Origin: Natronohydrobacter sp.
GTDB taxonomy: Bacteria > Pseudomonadota > Alphaproteobacteria > Rhodobacterales > Rhodobacteraceae
NCBI GenBank assembly: GCA_030603695.1
Contig: JAUVXF010000006.1
Location: 87,311-151,310, forward strand
Length of the DNA: 64,000 nucleotides
Direction: 5' to 3'
The notes beneath the pieces were generated by a model. It was not told where the DNA came from. It did not search any database and saw nothing but the letters and a program-made list of their open reading frames with translations. Below, one piece after another: positions 17,055-24,103 of the stretch; positions within the stretch are counted from its first letter, which is position 1, and the number at the start of each line of letters is the position of its first letter. The translations under genes and the position numbers were made by a program.

Positions 17055-19337
17055 ATGATGCCAGAGAATACCAGCGACGACAACCGCCACCCGGCGCTGA
17101 TTTATCACGAATTCCCCCGCCCCGGCAAATTGGAGGTGCGGCCCACAAAGCCCTTGGCCAATGGCTATGATTTGTCGCGCGCCTATTCGCCAGGCGTGGC
17201 CGAAGCTTGCATGGAGATCAAGGCAAACCCCGAAGATGCCGCGCGCTACACGGCGCGGGGCAATCTGGTGGCTGTTGTCACCAATGGCACCGCCGTTCTG
17301 GGCTTGGGCAATATCGGGCCTCTGGCCTCCAAGCCCGTGATGGAAGGCAAGGCGGTTTTGTTCAAGAAATTCGCCAATATCGATTGCTTTGATATTGAAC
17401 TGAACGAATCCGACCCCGAAAAACTGGCCGATATCGTTTGCGCGCTGGAACCCACCTTTGGCGCGATCAATCTGGAAGATATCAAAGCCCCCGATTGCTT
17501 TATCGTGGAGCGTATCTGCCGCGAGCGCATGGGCATTCCCGTGTTCCATGATGATCAGCACGGAACCGCGATTGTGGTGGGGGCTGCGGCTACAAACGCG
17601 CTGCTGGTTGCCGAAAAGCGGTTTGAGGATATCAAGATCGTTTCCACAGGGGGCGGTGCGGCGGGGATTGCCTGCCTGAACATGCTGGTAAAACTGGGCG
17701 TGAAGCGCGAAAATATCTGGTTGTGCGATATTCATGGGCTGGTCTATCAGGGCCGGGCAGAGGATATGAACCCCCAGAAAGCCGCCTTTGCCCAAGCCAC
17801 AGACAAGCGCAGTCTGGATGATGTGATTGATGGGGCAGATCTGTTTCTGGGCCTCTCTGGCCCCGGCGTGCTGAAGCCAGAGCAAGTGGCGCGCATGGCC
17901 GCGCGGCCCATCATCTTCGCGCTGGCCAATCCCACCCCCGAAATCCTGCCAGAGGCCGTGCGCGCGGTTGCGCCGGATGCGATCATGGCCACGGGGCGTT
18001 CGGATTTCCCAAATCAGGTGAATAACGTTCTGTGCTTTCCCTTCATCTTCCGGGGTGCGCTGGATGTGCGCGCGACAGAAATAAATGACGCCATGCAAAT
18101 TGGCTGTGTGGAAGGGATTGCCGCCCTCGCACGCGCCACCACCAGCGCAGAGGCCGCCGCCGCCTATAAGGGCGAACAACTCAGCTTTGGCCCCGATTAT
18201 CTGATCCCCAAACCCTTTGATCCGCGCCTGATGGGTGTGGTGGCCAGCGCAGTGGCCAAGGCTGCCATGGAATCGGGCGTGGCCAAGCGCCCTGTGCCTG
18301 ATCTGGCCGCCTATAAGGCGGGGCTGGATGCGTCTGTGTTCCGTTCGGCCATGATCATGCGCCCAGTATTCGAGGCCGCGCGCGCCGCATCCCGCCGGAT
18401 TGTCTTTGCCGAAGGCGAGGATGAGCGCGTTTTGCGCGCAGCCTCTGCCATGCTGGAAGAAACAACCGAGGTGCCCATCCTGATTGGCCGCCCCGAAGTG
18501 GTGGAAATGCGGCTGGAACGCGCGGGGCTGTCGATCAAGCCGGGGCGCGATTTCGAACTGGTCAACCCGCAAGATGACCCCCGCTACCGCGATTACTGGC
18601 AAAGCTATCATGCGCTGATGCAGCGCAGCGGCGTAACCCCCGATCTGGCGCGCGCGATCTTGCGCACCAATACAACCGCCATTGGCGCGATCATGGTGCA
18701 TCGGGGCGATGCCGATAGCCTGATCTGCGGCACATTCGGGCAGTTTCTGTGGCATTTGAACTATGTCAGCCAGATACTTGGCAATGCCGAACGCCACCCT
18801 GTGGGCGCGCTGTCGCTGCTTATCCAGCAAGAGGGCAATCTTTTTGTGGCCGATACGCAGGTTCACCCCAACCCCACGCCCGAACAGATTGCCGAAACCG
18901 CCATCGGGGCCGCGCGCCATGTGCGCCGCTTTGGGGTTTTGCCCAAGGTTGCGCTGTGCTCTCACAGCCAGTTTGGCAATCTGGATACCCCATCCGGGCG
19001 CAATATGCGCGCCGCGCTGGAGATATTGGACGCGCGCGGCGTGGATTTCGATTATGAAGGCGAAATGCATGTGGATGCGGCGCTTGACCCCGATTTGCGC
19101 GCAAGGCTTATGCCAAATGCGCGCTTTGCAGAGCCTGCAAATGTGCTGATCTTTGCAAATACAGATGCTGCAAGCGGGGTGCGCAACATTTTGAAAGCTC
19201 GCGGCGGCGCGCTGGAAGTTGGCCCAATCCTGATGGGTATGGGCAACACGGCGCATATTGTCACCCCCTCTATCACCGCGCGGGGCTTGCTGAACATGTC
19301 TGCGCTGGCGGGAACGCCTGTCGCGCAATACGGCTAA
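17055..19337 (+). CDS. maeB: NADP-dependent malic enzyme with C-terminal phosphotransacetylase-like domain
   Basis: A 760-residue MaeB-type fusion. Residues 1-430 are the malic enzyme ([43 protein letters not shown]), which decarboxylates malate to pyruvate with NADP. Residues 430-760 are a phosphate acetyltransferase-like domain, normally non-catalytic for acetyl transfer and used for regulation by acetyl-CoA. Two adjacent ATG codons (17055 and 17058) follow a GGGGGAT ribosome site. It is divergent from the salvage operon and upstream of prpE by 216 bases. Confidence 0.95.
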
Positions 19338-19452: not shown

Positions 19453-19553
19453 CTTTCCCGGCCTGCGCGCCGTTGTTGCCGTTAACAGGCATTGCGCCCT
19501 TGTTATGCAGTCGTCTATGCCTTTCCCAGAGCTGCATCTTGGGAGGAACACGC

Positions 19554-21446
19554 ATGCGCTACGCCGATCTGCACCAGAAATCCATCTCCGATCCAAACGG
19601 CTTCTGGATGGAACAAGCGCAAGCAATCGACTGGCACACGCCCCCCACGAAAGCCCTGTTTGCAGATAACGCCCCCCTGTATGAGTGGTTCGCCGATGGC
19701 ATGGTCAATACCTGCTGGAATGCGCTGGATCGTCATGTTGAAGCAGGGCGCGGCGATCAGGTGGCGGTGATCCATGACAGCCCGGTGACAGGCAGCATCA
19801 CCAAACTGACCTATGCGCAAATGCGTGACCGCGTGGCGGCGCTGGCGGGCGCAATGGCCGCCCAAGGCATTACCAAAGGCGACCGGGTGCTGATTTATAT
19901 GCCCATGGTTCCCGAAGCGCTGATGGCCATGCTGGCCTGTGCGCGGCTGGGGGCTATTCATTCGGTGGTGTTTGGCGGATTTGCGGCGCATGAACTGGCG
20001 GTGCGGATAAATGATGCGCAGCCCAAATGCATTATCGCGGCCTCTTGCGGGATAGAGCCGGGGCGCGTGGTGGCCTATAAACCCCTGCTGGACACTGCGA
20101 TAACAGAGGCCAGCCACAAGCCCGATTTCTGCGTGGTCTTGCAGCGCGACGCGCTGCATGCCGAACTGCTGGCCGGGCGCGACCATGACTGGGCGGAATT
20201 TGTGGCCAGTGCCGCGCCCGCCGATTGCGTGCCAGTGGAAGGCAGTCATCCGGCCTATGTTCTCTATACCTCTGGCACAACGGGCCAGCCCAAGGGGGTT
20301 ATCCGCGCCACGGGCGGGCATCTGGTGGCGCTGAACTGGTCTATGAAGAACATCTATAACGTCAATCCGGGCGAAGTATTCTGGGCCGCGTCTGATGTGG
20401 GTTGGGTCGTGGGCCATAGCTATATCTGCTATGCGCCCCTGATTGCCGGCAACACCACAATCGTATTCGAAGGCAAGCCCGTGGGAACCCCCGATGCGGG
20501 CACATTCTGGCGGGTGATTTCCGAGCATAAGGTGAAAAGCTTTTTCACCGCGCCAACCGCCTTTCGTGCTGTCAAACGCGAAGACCCATCGGGCGAATAT
20601 GTGGGCAAATATGATCTGTCCTGCCTGAAAACCGTCTATCTGGCGGGGGAACGTGCCGATCCTGATACGATTCTCTGGGCGCAAAACCAGCTTAACGTGC
20701 CTGTGATCGATCATTGGTGGCAAACAGAAACCGGCTGGGCCATTGCCGCCAACCCGATGGGACTGGAAGCGCTGCCCGTGAAACTTGGCTCTCCGGCCGT
20801 GGCCATGCCGGGCTATGACATTCAGGTTCTGGATGAAGGCGGCCATCCGGTTGCCCCCGGCTCCTTGGGCGCCATTGCCATCAAACTGCCCCTGCCGCCG
20901 GGCACATTGCCAAGCCTGTGGAATGCCGAAGCGCGGTTTCGCAAAAGCTATCTGGAACAATTCCCCGGCTATTACGCCACAGGCGATGCAGGCTATATGG
21001 ATGAGGATGGCTATGTCTATATCATGGCGCGCACCGATGATGTGATCAATGTGGCAGGCCACCGCCTGTCTACAGGGGCCATGGAAGAGGTGCTGGCCAG
21101 CCATCCCGATGTGGCCGAATGTGCCGTTATTGGCGTTGGGGACGAGTTGAAAGGCCAGTTGCCGCTGGGGTTTTTGTGCCTGAACAAAGGCGCAACCCGC
21201 GCCCCTGCCGATATCGTGAAAGATTGCGTCAAACTGGTGCGCGACCAGATCGGCCCGGTGGCGGCCTTCAAACTGGCTGTTGTGGTGGATCGCCTGCCCA
21301 AAACGCGCTCTGGCAAGATTTTGCGCGGCACGATGGTGGCGATTGCCGATAGCCAGCCCTTCAAGATGCCCGCAACCATTGATGACCCGGCCATTCTGGA
21401 TGAAATCAAGCTGGCGTTGCAAAGTTTGGGCTTTGCGCAGAAATAA
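19554..21446 (+). CDS. prpE: Propionyl-CoA synthetase
   Basis: A 630-residue AMP-forming acyl-CoA synthetase of the PrpE branch. Visible motifs are the P-loop YTSGTTGQPKGV, WWQTETGWAI, the hinge region YATGDAGYMDEDGYVYIMAR, and the C-terminal PKTRSGKILRGTM with the acetylatable lysine. It activates propionate (and acetate less well) to the CoA ester. The start at 19554 has a strong GGGAGGAA site. A terminator follows. Upstream TTTGCAAA elements suggest propionyl-CoA-responsive control. Confidence 0.94.
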   Translation: MRYADLHQKSISDPNGFWMEQAQAIDWHTPPTKALFADNAPLYEWFADGMVNTCWNALDRHVEAGRGDQVAVIHDSPVTGSITKLTYAQMRDRVAALAGAMAAQGITKGDRVLIYMPMVPEALMAMLACARLGAIHSVVFGGFAAHELAVRINDAQPKCIIAASCGIEPGRVVAYKPLLDTAITEASHKPDFCVVLQRDALHAELLAGRDHDWAEFVASAAPADCVPVEGSHPAYVLYTSGTTGQPKGVIRATGGHLVALNWSMKNIYNVNPGEVFWAASDVGWVVGHSYICYAPLIAGNTTIVFEGKPVGTPDAGTFWRVISEHKVKSFFTAPTAFRAVKREDPSGEYVGKYDLSCLKTVYLAGERADPDTILWAQNQLNVPVIDHWWQTETGWAIAANPMGLEALPVKLGSPAVAMPGYDIQVLDEGGHPVAPGSLGAIAIKLPLPPGTLPSLWNAEARFRKSYLEQFPGYYATGDAGYMDEDGYVYIMARTDDVINVAGHRLSTGAMEEVLASHPDVAECAVIGVGDELKGQLPLGFLCLNKGATRAPADIVKDCVKLVRDQIGPVAAFKLAVVVDRLPKTRSGKILRGTMVAIADSQPFKMPATIDDPAILDEIKLALQSLGFAQK

Positions 21447-21503
21447 AGCCGCGCAAAGCAGGTGACAGGTTGAAAACTGCGGCAAGCTAGGCTTATTGTT
21501 GTA

Positions 21504-21541
21504 ACGCGTTGCGGACATACACTGCCGCAGCGCGTTTTTTT
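21504..21541 (+). terminator. Rho-independent terminator after prpE
   Basis: An 11-base stem (21504-21514 with 21525-21535, one G-U pair) with a 10-base loop is followed directly by a run of seven T. It ends prpE transcription and separates it from the Hpt gene. Confidence 0.9.
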
Positions 21542-21556
21542 CATACCGTGTTTTCG

Positions 21557-21898
21557 ATGACTGTTCATTCCATCATGTCTTTGCGCGAATTTGATACGCA
21601 TCTTGTCAGCTCTATGATCGCGCTTGCTGGTGCGGGCTTGCAAAACCAATTGCCAGCAGATTTTGAACGCTGCGCCCAACGCTTGCACGATATCAGGCGC
21701 AGTGGCGGGCACGCGCAGATGCAGCGCGCCTTGCATGAATTGCGTGGCCTTGCGCTGGCTGTCGGGGCAGACCAGCTTGCAGACCTCTGCGCGGGTATCG
21801 AAAATCATAGCATGAACACAGAGCTTTGCACCCATCTGGCAGAGGCCAGCACGGCGCTTGCAACCTCTATCCGCAGCCTGCGCGCTGCCACGTCATGA
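21557..21898 (+). CDS. Small Hpt-like histidine phosphotransfer protein
   Basis: A 113-residue, mostly helical protein. The segment ALHELRGLALAVGADQLADLCAGIE matches the Hpt signature H-x-L-(K/R)-G-x-A-x-x-x-G, with H60 the likely phosphorylation site. It overlaps the following response regulator gene in an ATGA, so the two are probably a phosphorelay pair like LuxU-LuxO. The start is uncertain: ATG at 21557 or 21575, neither with a clear ribosome site. An in-frame start at 21509 falls inside the prpE terminator and is unlikely. Confidence 0.72.
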   Translation: MTVHSIMSLREFDTHLVSSMIALAGAGLQNQLPADFERCAQRLHDIRRSGGHAQMQRALHELRGLALAVGADQLADLCAGIENHSMNTELCTHLAEASTALATSIRSLRAATS

Positions 21899-23274
21899 CC
21901 CCGCGCGCGCCTGCCCCGCAACCCCCGGAACTGCTGCTGATAGAAGATACACCCTCGTTGCAGATGTTGTATCGCGCGGTTCTGAACAAAGCCGGATATC
22001 GTGTTATCTGCGCGGAGTCTGGCGCAACAGGGCGCGCGAAATTTGATATCCACCGCCCGCCCGTGGTGGTGCTTGATCTGATGTTGCCTGATATGGATGG
22101 CATGACGTTGATTGACGATATGCTGGCAAATGCGCCCAAAACGCGGATCATTGTCATCACCGCCGATGGCACTGTGGACAGGGCCATAGATGCCACCCGC
22201 AAGGGCGCGTATGATTTCCTTGTCAAACCCTTGGGCGATATGCGCCTTGTGACGGCTGTCAGCGCCGCAATGACCGAATACCGCGCGCAGGCGCGCTATA
22301 GCGGGACATTGGGGGGGGAGCTGCCAGACTTGGGCAAGGCATTCTTTTCCGGCCCGTCAGACAGCGTGGCAAAGCTGCTGAAAGAGATTGGCGCGGTTGC
22401 ACGATCTTGCGTGCCACTGGTTATTCTGGGCGAACGTGGCTGCGGCAAACGCGCTGTCGCGGAATTGGTGCACCAGCATTCAGCCCGCGCGGCCAAGCCC
22501 TTTGTCGCTGTCGATTGCGCCATGCAAACCGGCCCGGCACTGGAAGAAGCCCTGTTTGGCACCGAGGCCAGCCCGCAAGCGCACCCGCGCCTTGGGGCCT
22601 TGGCGCGCGCGCATGGCGGCACACTTCTGATCGCACAGCCCGAAGCCATGGAACCGGCGCTGCAATTGCGGCTGCTGGCGGCGCTGCAATCCGGGCTGGT
22701 GGCGACAGGGCAAGGGGGTGCTTCCAGCGCGTGCGATGTGCGCCTGATCTGTGCCACCCGCCAACACCCCGCCGCAGACATGCAAGCGGGCCGCTTGACC
22801 GAAGAATTTTATTACCAATGCTGTGTCATCCCGCTGCATGTGCCCCCCTTGGCCGCGCGGCGCGATGATATCGTGCCGCTGGCGCTGAATCTGGTCGCGG
22901 CGCTTGCCCGCGCGGAGGGGAAGCATTTCAGCCGCATTTCCGATGCCGGCGCAGAAAAGCTGCGCACCCGGCCCTGGCCGGGCAATCTGCGCGAATTGAT
23001 CAATGTGCTGCGCCATGCCGTAATCTTGCATGACGGGCCGGAATTGGGCGTGGCCATGTTGCCCGATTGCCCCGCCCTGACAGAGGCCACCCCCACCGCC
23101 CAGACGCTGGAAGAGGCCATGAAGGGTCTAAGCATGGCAGAGATCGAACGCCGCGCCTTTTTGGCTGCGCTGATGCGCCATGATGGCTCTGTCCCCCGCG
23201 CCGCGCGGGAACTGGACATTGCGCCATCAACGCTTTACCGCAGACGCGATGTCCTCGCACAATTCACCCAATAG
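21895..23274 (+). CDS. NtrC/LuxO-like response regulator with degenerate AAA+ domain
   Basis: A 459-residue three-domain protein. The receiver (residues 12-125) is intact: E17/D18, phospho-acceptor D61 (VVLDLMLPDMDG), T89, K111. The AAA+ domain (about 150-385) is degraded: Walker A is GERGCGKR, the GAFTGA loop is missing between residues 220 and 235, Walker B reads LLIAQPEAM instead of LFLDEIGEM, and both arginine positions near 302-308 are T and Q. A Fis-type helix-turn-helix ends the protein (SVPRAARELDIAPSTLYRRR). It should bind DNA but not activate sigma-54 by ATP hydrolysis. It is coupled to the Hpt gene. Confidence 0.85.
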   Translation: MTPRAPAPQPPELLLIEDTPSLQMLYRAVLNKAGYRVICAESGATGRAKFDIHRPPVVVLDLMLPDMDGMTLIDDMLANAPKTRIIVITADGTVDRAIDATRKGAYDFLVKPLGDMRLVTAVSAAMTEYRAQARYSGTLGGELPDLGKAFFSGPSDSVAKLLKEIGAVARSCVPLVILGERGCGKRAVAELVHQHSARAAKPFVAVDCAMQTGPALEEALFGTEASPQAHPRLGALARAHGGTLLIAQPEAMEPALQLRLLAALQSGLVATGQGGASSACDVRLICATRQHPAADMQAGRLTEEFYYQCCVIPLHVPPLAARRDDIVPLALNLVAALARAEGKHFSRISDAGAEKLRTRPWPGNLRELINVLRHAVILHDGPELGVAMLPDCPALTEATPTAQTLEEAMKGLSMAEIERRAFLAALMRHDGSVPRAARELDIAPSTLYRRRDVLAQFTQ

Positions 23275-24103
23275 CGCTGCGCGCAGTGTTCTTATCACCG
23301 GCTGTTCCTCCGGGATCGGCTATCACGCGGCGCATGCGCTGGCCGCGCGGGGCTGGCGTGTCTTTGCCACCTGCCGGGCCGAAGCGGATTGCGCGCGCCT
23401 GCGCGCCGAGGGGCTGGAAAGCCTGCACCTGGATTACAGCGATAAACCTTCTATCCATGCCGCCCTGGCCGAAGTGCTGGCCCGCACGGGCGGCAGGCTG
23501 GATGCGCTGTTCAACAATGGCGCCTATGCCGTGCCCGGCGCCACTGAAGATTTGCCCACAGAGGCCCTGCGCGCCCTGTTCGAGGTCAATTTCTTTGGCT
23601 GGCATGAATTGACGCGCGCGGTGCTGCCAGTGATGCGCGCCCAGGGGCACGGGCGGATTGTGCAAAACAGTTCGGTTCTGGGGCTGGCCGCGCTGCGCTG
23701 GCGCGGGGCCTATGTCTCTTCCAAATTCGCGCTGGAAGGGCTGACCGATGTCTTGCGGCTGGAAATGGCAGGCACGGGCATTGATATCATCCTGATCGAA
23801 CCGGGGCCGATCACCACCCGCATTCGCGAAAATTCCATCCCGCATTTCGAGGCATGGATAGACTGGAAAAACAGCCCCCGCCGGGCGCAATATGAAGACA
23901 GCCTGCTGGCGCGGCTTTATGACAAACGCGGCCCGGATTTCTTCGAACTCCCTCCCGATGCCGTAACCCGCCGCCTGATCCATGCGCTTGAATCGCGCCG
24001 CCCCCGCCCGCGCTATTATGTGACCACCCCCACCCGCCTGCTGGGAACAATCCGGCGCATACTGCCCACGGCCGCGCTGGACTGGGTGTTGCGGAAATTG
24101 TGA
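23249..24103 (+). CDS. Short-chain dehydrogenase/reductase
   Basis: A 284-residue classical SDR. The cofactor loop is TGCSSGIGYHA (residues 17-27), NNGAYA is the NNAG-like motif, and the catalytic set is S141 or S142, Y155 and K159 (YVSSK). It resembles the proteobacterial SDRs annotated as oxidoreductases of unknown substrate, with a hydrophobic C-terminal tail. The ATG at 23249 overlaps the response regulator end by 26 bases, so the two are probably co-transcribed. The substrate is unknown. Confidence 0.88.
   Translation: MSSHNSPNSAARSVLITGCSSGIGYHAAHALAARGWRVFATCRAEADCARLRAEGLESLHLDYSDKPSIHAALAEVLARTGGRLDALFNNGAYAVPGATEDLPTEALRALFEVNFFGWHELTRAVLPVMRAQGHGRIVQNSSVLGLAALRWRGAYVSSKFALEGLTDVLRLEMAGTGIDIILIEPGPITTRIRENSIPHFEAWIDWKNSPRRAQYEDSLLARLYDKRGPDFFELPPDAVTRRLIHALESRRPRPRYYVTTPTRLLGTIRRILPTAALDWVLRKL

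Follow-up and report, generated by a model that had tools for sequence, protein, structure and literature searches.

The locus described here raises the question of how a regulator built like a bacterial enhancer-binding protein (bEBP), but with a defective AAA+ domain, could still act, and in which circuit. It lies in a stretch of 64,000 nucleotides (hereafter the window) from a Natronohydrobacter genome (G000), and is composed of two genes on the + strand. The first one (21557..21898) encodes a stand-alone Hpt protein of 113 aa, with a phospho-accepting H60 in HELRG, and is recognised by Pfam PF01627 (E 1.7e-6, 28.6 bits against a cut-off of 24.6). H60 and G64 are invariant in 8/8 aligned sequences, the window copy counted; the aligned relatives begin at the ATG at 21575, which may be the true start. 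The second one (21895..23274) encodes an AprX-type regulator of 459 aa. An earlier note, made from the sequence of this region, had described an Hpt gene ATGA-coupled to a REC-AAA+-Fis regulator, and both the genes and their overlap are confirmed. Upstream on the + strand lie a conserved neighbour, which we take to be a prpE-like acyl-CoA synthetase gene (ORF 19473..21446), and, preceding it, what is presumably a maeB-like malic enzyme gene (ORF 17055..19337), at the position of which ORFs comparable in size and position only are found in many of 20 widely fetched loci. Downstream, a + strand ORF (23249..24103) that we assign to the SDR family starts within the final codons of the regulator gene (23249-23274), so that both genes probably form one transcription unit; across the family, the SDR gene is not conserved as a neighbour, several relatives having other genes there. 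Around the Hpt gene (21300-23500), two promoter-like and no terminator-like sites were detected.

The receiver, Sigma54_activat, AAA_lid_14 and HTH_8 domains of the regulator all exceed their Pfam cut-offs. In agreement with the earlier note, the receiver (residues 14-122, 21934..22260; PF00072, E 3.2e-23) is complete and the Fis-type HTH (residues 414-451, 23134..23247; PF02954, E 2.2e-9) is intact: E17, D18, D61 (22075-22077) and K111 (22225-22227) in the former, and S445, T446, Y448, R449 and R451 in the latter, are invariant in all 21 aligned sequences of the window genus. The central domain has by homology the AAA+ fold of sigma-54 activators (PF00158, 106.2 bits against 20.2). Alignment with LuxO (PDB 5ep0) and a motif table bear out the losses claimed for it: the GAFTGA segment is absent (site of the missing loop 1 at 22555..22599), the Walker B remnant TLLIAQPE (22621..22644) carries A247 and Q248 where bEBPs have DE, and the arginine-finger segment TEEFYYQC (22798..22821) carries T302 and Q308 where bEBPs have arginines. 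GxFTGA and the DE pair are found in none of the 32 proteins of the genus, a few of which retain one of the two acids, and most sister copies are less eroded than that of the window (T302, Q308, AQ). The alteration of Walker A had been overstated, as GERGCGKR (core GERGCGK at 22429..22449) differs from the standard GESGTGKE in variable letters only and conforms to GxxGxGK; G179, G182 and G184 are present in 21/21 genus sequences, and position 185 is K in 18 and R in 3. Because these glycines and K185 are all kept, the protein could still bind nucleotides. The loss of the GAFTGA loop, of the acidic Walker B pair and of the two finger arginines leads us to predict that the protein cannot support sigma-54 transcription.

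To which family does this regulator belong? The best named family by sequence is LuxO (NCBIfam, 7e-88; top PDB match 5ep0), and the Vibrio LuxO/LuxU system resembles the window pair by its combination of an Hpt protein with a REC-AAA+-Fis regulator and by its TTGCAWWWTGCAA site. However, LuxO actively drives the sigma-54-dependent expression of the Qrr sRNAs, and the window protein scores 295 bits against NF041946, where the curated cut-off requires 800. The NtrC/LuxO-type label given to it by the earlier note can be made more specific, since the locus, the clade and the identity of two Cereibacter-type proteins indicate that it is very likely an orthologue of Cereibacter AprX. According to the accessible text of PMC11999139, which, as judged by listing, is the only paper found on the AprX/xrpA pair in the Rhodobacterales literature, AprX of C. 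sphaeroides is a bEBP with a REC domain and a GAFTGA/GSFTGA box, required together with RpoN3 for the expression of xrpA, and XrpA, of the XRE type, represses ctrA and chpT. The regulator P0085, annotated as C. sphaeroides, combines REC with GSFTGA, in line with the published description of AprX; we infer that it is RSWS8N_13400. The G261 regulator, encoded in a locus organised as prpE-Hpt-regulator, is 99.6% identical to it.

Cereibacter AprX and the window protein share the REC-AAA+-Fis architecture, the prpE-linked locus, an Hpt gene directly upstream (in G261) and xrpA as presumed target. In a tree of 94 rows, from which 15 others (fragments, paralogues, near-duplicates or rows cut by an edge) were omitted, the genus clade lies within the family clade, in one clade with the Cereibacter protein L082 (starred support of 100); in a second tree of 45 rows, its support is 100/100, also starred. 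The prpE-[HK/Hpt]-regulator locus and the clade with L082 are thus those of AprX. In contrast, the window protein has neither the GSFTGA nor the intact ATPase of Cereibacter AprX and lacks the GAFTGA/GSFTGA box by which the census of PMC11999139, in its accessible text, took box-bearing proteins only; xrpA of the window genome is likewise devoid of a recognisable sigma-54 motif, the best sigma-54-like one scoring 6/12.

All 24 genomes of the window genus match the regulator, 22 of the 23 others over most or all of the protein and at 45-57% identity, the match in G016 being cut by a contig end. The same query family matches records that bear the names Roseinatronobacter, Natronohydrobacter and Roseibaca, from which we take the window genus to be Roseinatronobacter in a wide sense. 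In a database search with 1097 hits, of which the best 120 were considered, the 74 top-scoring ones (41-95% identity) and one fragment are devoid of GxFTGA and DE, and the remaining 45 (39-43% identity) have both. In a one-per-genus sampling of the family, an orthologue is found in 60 of 246 genomes of other genera; as selected by us from the match listing and later recounted, these comprise 45 proteins with G[AS]FTGA, 10 with a point-mutated loop and 5 with a deleted loop. A mixture-model tree of 45 proteins, computed without the loop and Walker B columns and with point-mutated loops (e.g. GAFPGA) coded as present, gives seven loop-state changes, at least three of which are forced on starred branches, and a single change is allowed by 0% of 200 bootstrap trees. 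A quick tree of the 75 scored genomes, with a stricter G[AS]FTGA coding, gives five changes. Long branches make the placement of several dead rows unsure. As reconstructed on these trees, loop loss has recurred within the AprX family.

Such losses could be expected of a decaying pseudogene, and the stronger erosion of the window copy at T302, Q308 and AQ, the disappearance of the kinase part, that of the Hpt in 10/32 genus loci and the degenerate receivers of G174 and G144 elsewhere in the family would fit this explanation. However, no internal stop is present in 24 genus matches, dN/dS is below 0.2 in the receiver, AAA+ and HTH of genus pairs, and the putative operator described below is kept in 20/22 genus genomes. 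The dead AAA+ domain has a dN/dS of 0.07-0.19 in 14 close genus pairs, to be compared with 0.12-0.20 in four pairs whose loop is intact or nearly so, two pairs being saturated (dS >2). The receiver is more constrained than the AAA+ domain in 11/13 genus pairs, and the HTH in 12/13. Judged from these ratios, the dead domain is under purifying selection and not in recent decay. Orthologues with intact motifs are found in other genera only, and in none of the 32 genus loci, which also speaks against the recent decay that the earlier note had considered. The pseudogene explanation is therefore largely refuted and very improbable.

What the retained AAA+ domain could contribute is suggested by its structure and by shortened relatives. 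An AlphaFold2 model (mean pLDDT 87.8) retains the AAA+ fold, which Foldseek aligns with structures of the LuxO catalytic domain (245 columns, 2.0 A). A structural role, as proposed by the earlier note, fits the selection data, but the whole domain is dispensed with in the relative G046, whose AprX is a REC-HTH protein of 211 aa (L360:987-1622), preceded by a gene ending in an Hpt-like domain. RegA, PrrA and ActR consist of REC plus a Fis HTH, with no AAA+; the G046 form matches this architecture, although they form a separate family and its AAA+ loss is secondary. In G144, AprX has 421 aa, with a trimmed AAA+ domain and a degenerate receiver.

The AAA+ domain might alternatively sense a ligand (ATP, c-di-GMP or another nucleotide), as in VpsR or FleQ, the ligand more than phosphorylation setting DNA binding. 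The kept Walker A core would leave room for ATP or another ligand, and Foldseek lists chains of VpsR at rank 12-14. Vibrio cholerae VpsR is, like the window regulator, an atypical bEBP without GAFTGA; it binds c-di-GMP, according to a PDB entry title, and works at sigma-70 promoters (as VspR in the accessible text of PMC10274813). The same text reports that NtrC of Rhodobacter capsulatus and Caulobacter, also without GAFTGA, acts at sigma-70 promoters, and that, for R. capsulatus NtrC to work, ATP has to be bound but need not be hydrolysed. VpsR is, however, a separate family from the window regulator, and these NtrC proteins are a different orthologue family. The invariance of the receiver Asp and Lys (21/21) favours phospho-control, and G046 has no AAA+ domain in which a ligand could be sensed; we regard ligand control as unlikely. 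G000 also encodes an NtrC-like protein, L367 (G000:C3:29300-31700), which has no GAFTGA loop and retains the DE of Walker B, a combination reported for NtrC of Rhodobacterales.

If the regulator is controlled by phosphorylation, the origin of its Hpt partner and of the phosphate has to be considered. A prpE gene is found upstream of the regulator in 32/32 genus loci (C-terminal part detected) and in 29/61 loci of other genera, the paralogue L137 counted, the other 32 being made up of 5 widely fetched loci without prpE and 27 with too little upstream sequence. Among 58 family loci, some of which end early, the gene preceding the regulator encodes HK-REC-Hpt in 28, REC-Hpt in 6, Hpt alone in 14 and something else in 4, nothing being detected in 6. 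In the genus, the linked gene encodes Hpt alone in 22/32 loci, and no linked Hpt is found in 10/32, though the receiver is kept. As the preceding gene in other genera often encodes a full HK-REC-Hpt kinase, the stand-alone Hpt most likely is, by its sequence and position, a remnant of such a linked kinase, derived from the C-terminal domain. The LuxU-like partnership put forward in the earlier note is thus better described as descent from a linked kinase, and 10/32 genus loci have no Hpt to take part in it. VpsR is not known to have a paired Hpt. In G261, which is Cereibacter-like, a stand-alone Hpt with HELKG (L148) lies directly upstream of aprX; the word Hpt is absent from the main text of PMC11999139, in its accessible part, which reports no kinase near aprX.

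Where the receiver is kept and the Hpt is lost, another phosphodonor must therefore be assumed. The phosphorelay with an unlinked kinase proposed earlier is retained in so far as an unlinked kinase has to be postulated. None was found: a query with the L155 kinase in 25 genomes (16 of the genus) returned matches of 24-41% identity and no clear orthologue of a linked or relocated AprX kinase, and none of the 29 HATPase matches of G000 could be singled out as the feeder kinase. G000 also has an unlinked stand-alone Hpt with HFLKG, L368 (G000:C33:88500-89700). It might serve receivers without a linked Hpt in sister species, and weak unlinked-Hpt matches were obtained in 6/7 tested genomes without a linked Hpt.

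The presumed target offers a way to follow the circuit. In the accessible text of PMC11999139, the genes flanking xrpA are a hisN paralogue and a divergent oxidoreductase gene, and box-bearing AprX co-occurs with a sigma-54 promoter at xrpA; this text mentions no UAS, TTGC, palindrome, inverted repeat or enhancer sequence. A LuxO-type site, TTGCA-N3-TGCAA, was scanned in 16 genomes first, in many of which one site is located about 200 bp upstream of the XRE gene beside hisN. This site fits the LuxO UAS consensus in print, TTGCAWWWTGCAA (PMC10162802, PMC11443567, as far as accessible). The window genome has a perfect site, TTGCAATTTGCAA, which lies 214 bp upstream of xrpA and 100 bp upstream of the start of the oxidoreductase gene; in genus genomes, the best site is 100-195 bp from the oxidoreductase start and, in most, about 170-285 bp from xrpA. 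Given these distances, either gene may be the direct target. G000 contains five perfect sites, four of which are inside or at the edge of ORFs (one of these between dusB-like and ntrB-like frames), the xrpA site being the only clearly intergenic one. Near-matches to the site are not in excess in the window (2 found, 6.3 expected).

xrpA was sought in 160 genomes, with matches in 78/80 and 74/80, and 147 of the 160 were scored: 8 had no match at the thresholds, G002 was weak, and G093, G162, G056 and G173 were not fetched; the second xrpA copies G003b, G021b and G130b are outside these counts. A sigma-54 motif was scored at >=10/12 within 220 bp of the xrpA start and the operator at >=9/10. With a GxFTGA-containing AprX (44 genomes), the sigma-54 motif is present in 43 and the operator in 39. 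With a point-mutated loop (9 genomes, including G174, which reads GSVTGT and has a degenerate receiver), the motif is present in none and the operator in 6; the corresponding numbers are 0 and 4 for the 5 genomes outside the genus with a deleted loop, 0 and 20 for the 22 genomes of the window genus, and 0 and 2 for the 2 genomes with a trimmed AprX, G046 and G144, counted as AprX-bearing. In total, the 38 genomes with a defective AprX have 0 sigma-54 motifs and 32 operators. Among the 65 genomes without recognised AprX, a class defined by full-length matches in which other short remnants may hide, 3 have the motif, which is about chance level, and 1 has the operator. Scores of >=9 are reached by 6.6% (sigma-54 motif) and 3.2% (operator) of dinucleotide shuffles.

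Fisher values are 1e-22 for the promoter in intact vs defective AprX and 2e-19 for the operator in defective vs no AprX, both inflated by relatedness. On the tree, a motif of >=9 is found in 41/41 genomes with the loop and in 1/34 without it. Promoter and loop are concordant in 3.9 of 4 phylogenetically independent pairs on average, none being opposite, a sign test on four pairs being unable to go below 0.125; in the same pairs, the operator does not clearly track the state of the loop, which is what its retention would predict. The operator scores below 9/10 in 6/38 defective genomes (five score 8 and G174 scores 6) and in 5/44 intact ones. Exceptions are a weak sigma-54-like motif of 9/12 in G087, whose AprX is defective, and, in G013 of the genus, a motif of 10/12 at -291 when 400 bp are scanned. 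At xrpA of both G046 and G144, the operator is perfect and the sigma-54 motif is missing; this retention of the site indicates that it follows the DNA-binding regulator and not the ATPase. As the earlier note expected from the lost motifs, sigma-54 open complexes are not to be anticipated; no good motif is found within 220 bp of xrpA in any of the 38 defective genomes, and the sigma-54-independent role it suggested gains indirect support from the kept predicted operator. By eye, an inverted motif resembling CCTGTC-TTTTTGG-AYAGG is seen upstream of xrpA in G081, G085, G087, G264, G055, G280 and G128, where the sigma-54 motif is absent; it is perhaps the site of another regulator or XrpA's own.

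Sigma-54 control could nevertheless persist if the dead protein were a subunit of mixed rings with an intact bEBP, to which it would lend DNA specificity, as a mirror image of FleQ/FleT. G000 keeps one rpoN (and a ChpT) and has other bEBPs with full-length Sigma54_activat matches. However, a sigma-54 motif of >=10/12 is missing within 220 bp of xrpA in 22/22 genus genomes, and a subunit deprived of arginine fingers and Walker B would weaken the ring, so that we consider this arrangement highly unlikely. It is also improbable that TTGCA-N3-TGCAA belongs to another factor, its presence at xrpA being then uninformative on AprX. Binding by AprX is a prediction, and G159 has a perfect site though no AprX was detected in it. 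Yet 64/65 genomes without recognised AprX have xrpA but not the site, two apparent exceptions carried shortened AprX genes, and the site agrees with the LuxO UAS, LuxO being the nearest named relative.

We therefore favour, with a probability of about 0.7, the reading that the pair is the Roseinatronobacter form of AprX, a sigma-54-independent, phosphorelay-controlled DNA-binding regulator acting at an old, predicted operator. An unlinked kinase would phosphorylate the linked Hpt, where present, from which the phosphate would be transferred to D61. Dimers of phosphorylated AprX would then bind the predicted TTGCA-N3-TGCAA in the region that separates xrpA from the divergent quinone oxidoreductase gene, where they could recruit or block sigma-70 RNA polymerase at this divergon. 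By analogy with Rhodobacter NtrC (accessible text of PMC10274813) and RegA-type REC-Fis regulators, we have a weak preference for activation. On balance, we also lean towards a stepwise record, in which several Rhodobacteraceae lineages would have independently lost the AprX loop, often Walker B and, in one case, the whole AAA+ domain; the kinase would have shrunk from HK-REC-Hpt to Hpt or nothing in many of them, and xrpA would have lost its sigma-54 promoter, while the enhancer site stayed and was re-used as a sigma-70 operator.

That bEBPs without GAFTGA can act at sigma-70 promoters is already known from Rhodobacter and Caulobacter NtrC and from VpsR (PMC10274813, accessible text). As far as the literature was searched, the repeated loss of the AprX loop, the matching loss of the promoter, the retention of a LuxO-type operator, a form of AprX without AAA+ and the remains of the kinase are new. 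In the Cereibacter-type system, xrpA depends on AprX and RpoN3 (PMC11999139, accessible text), and the xrpA gene of the window genome has no sigma-54 motif. The Hpt upstream of aprX in G261 and the HK-REC-Hpt kinases of many other genera provide a lead on the kinase that is missing near aprX in that text. Enhancer-binding proteins without GAFTGA have been known singly, and how a circuit can change its sigma factor without being lost is hard to study. As intact, point-mutated, loop-deleted and AAA+-deleted forms occur here in one family with a common likely target, the order of loss becomes directly testable, in a circuit that stands above ctrA and chpT, the alphaproteobacterial motility and cell-cycle relay.
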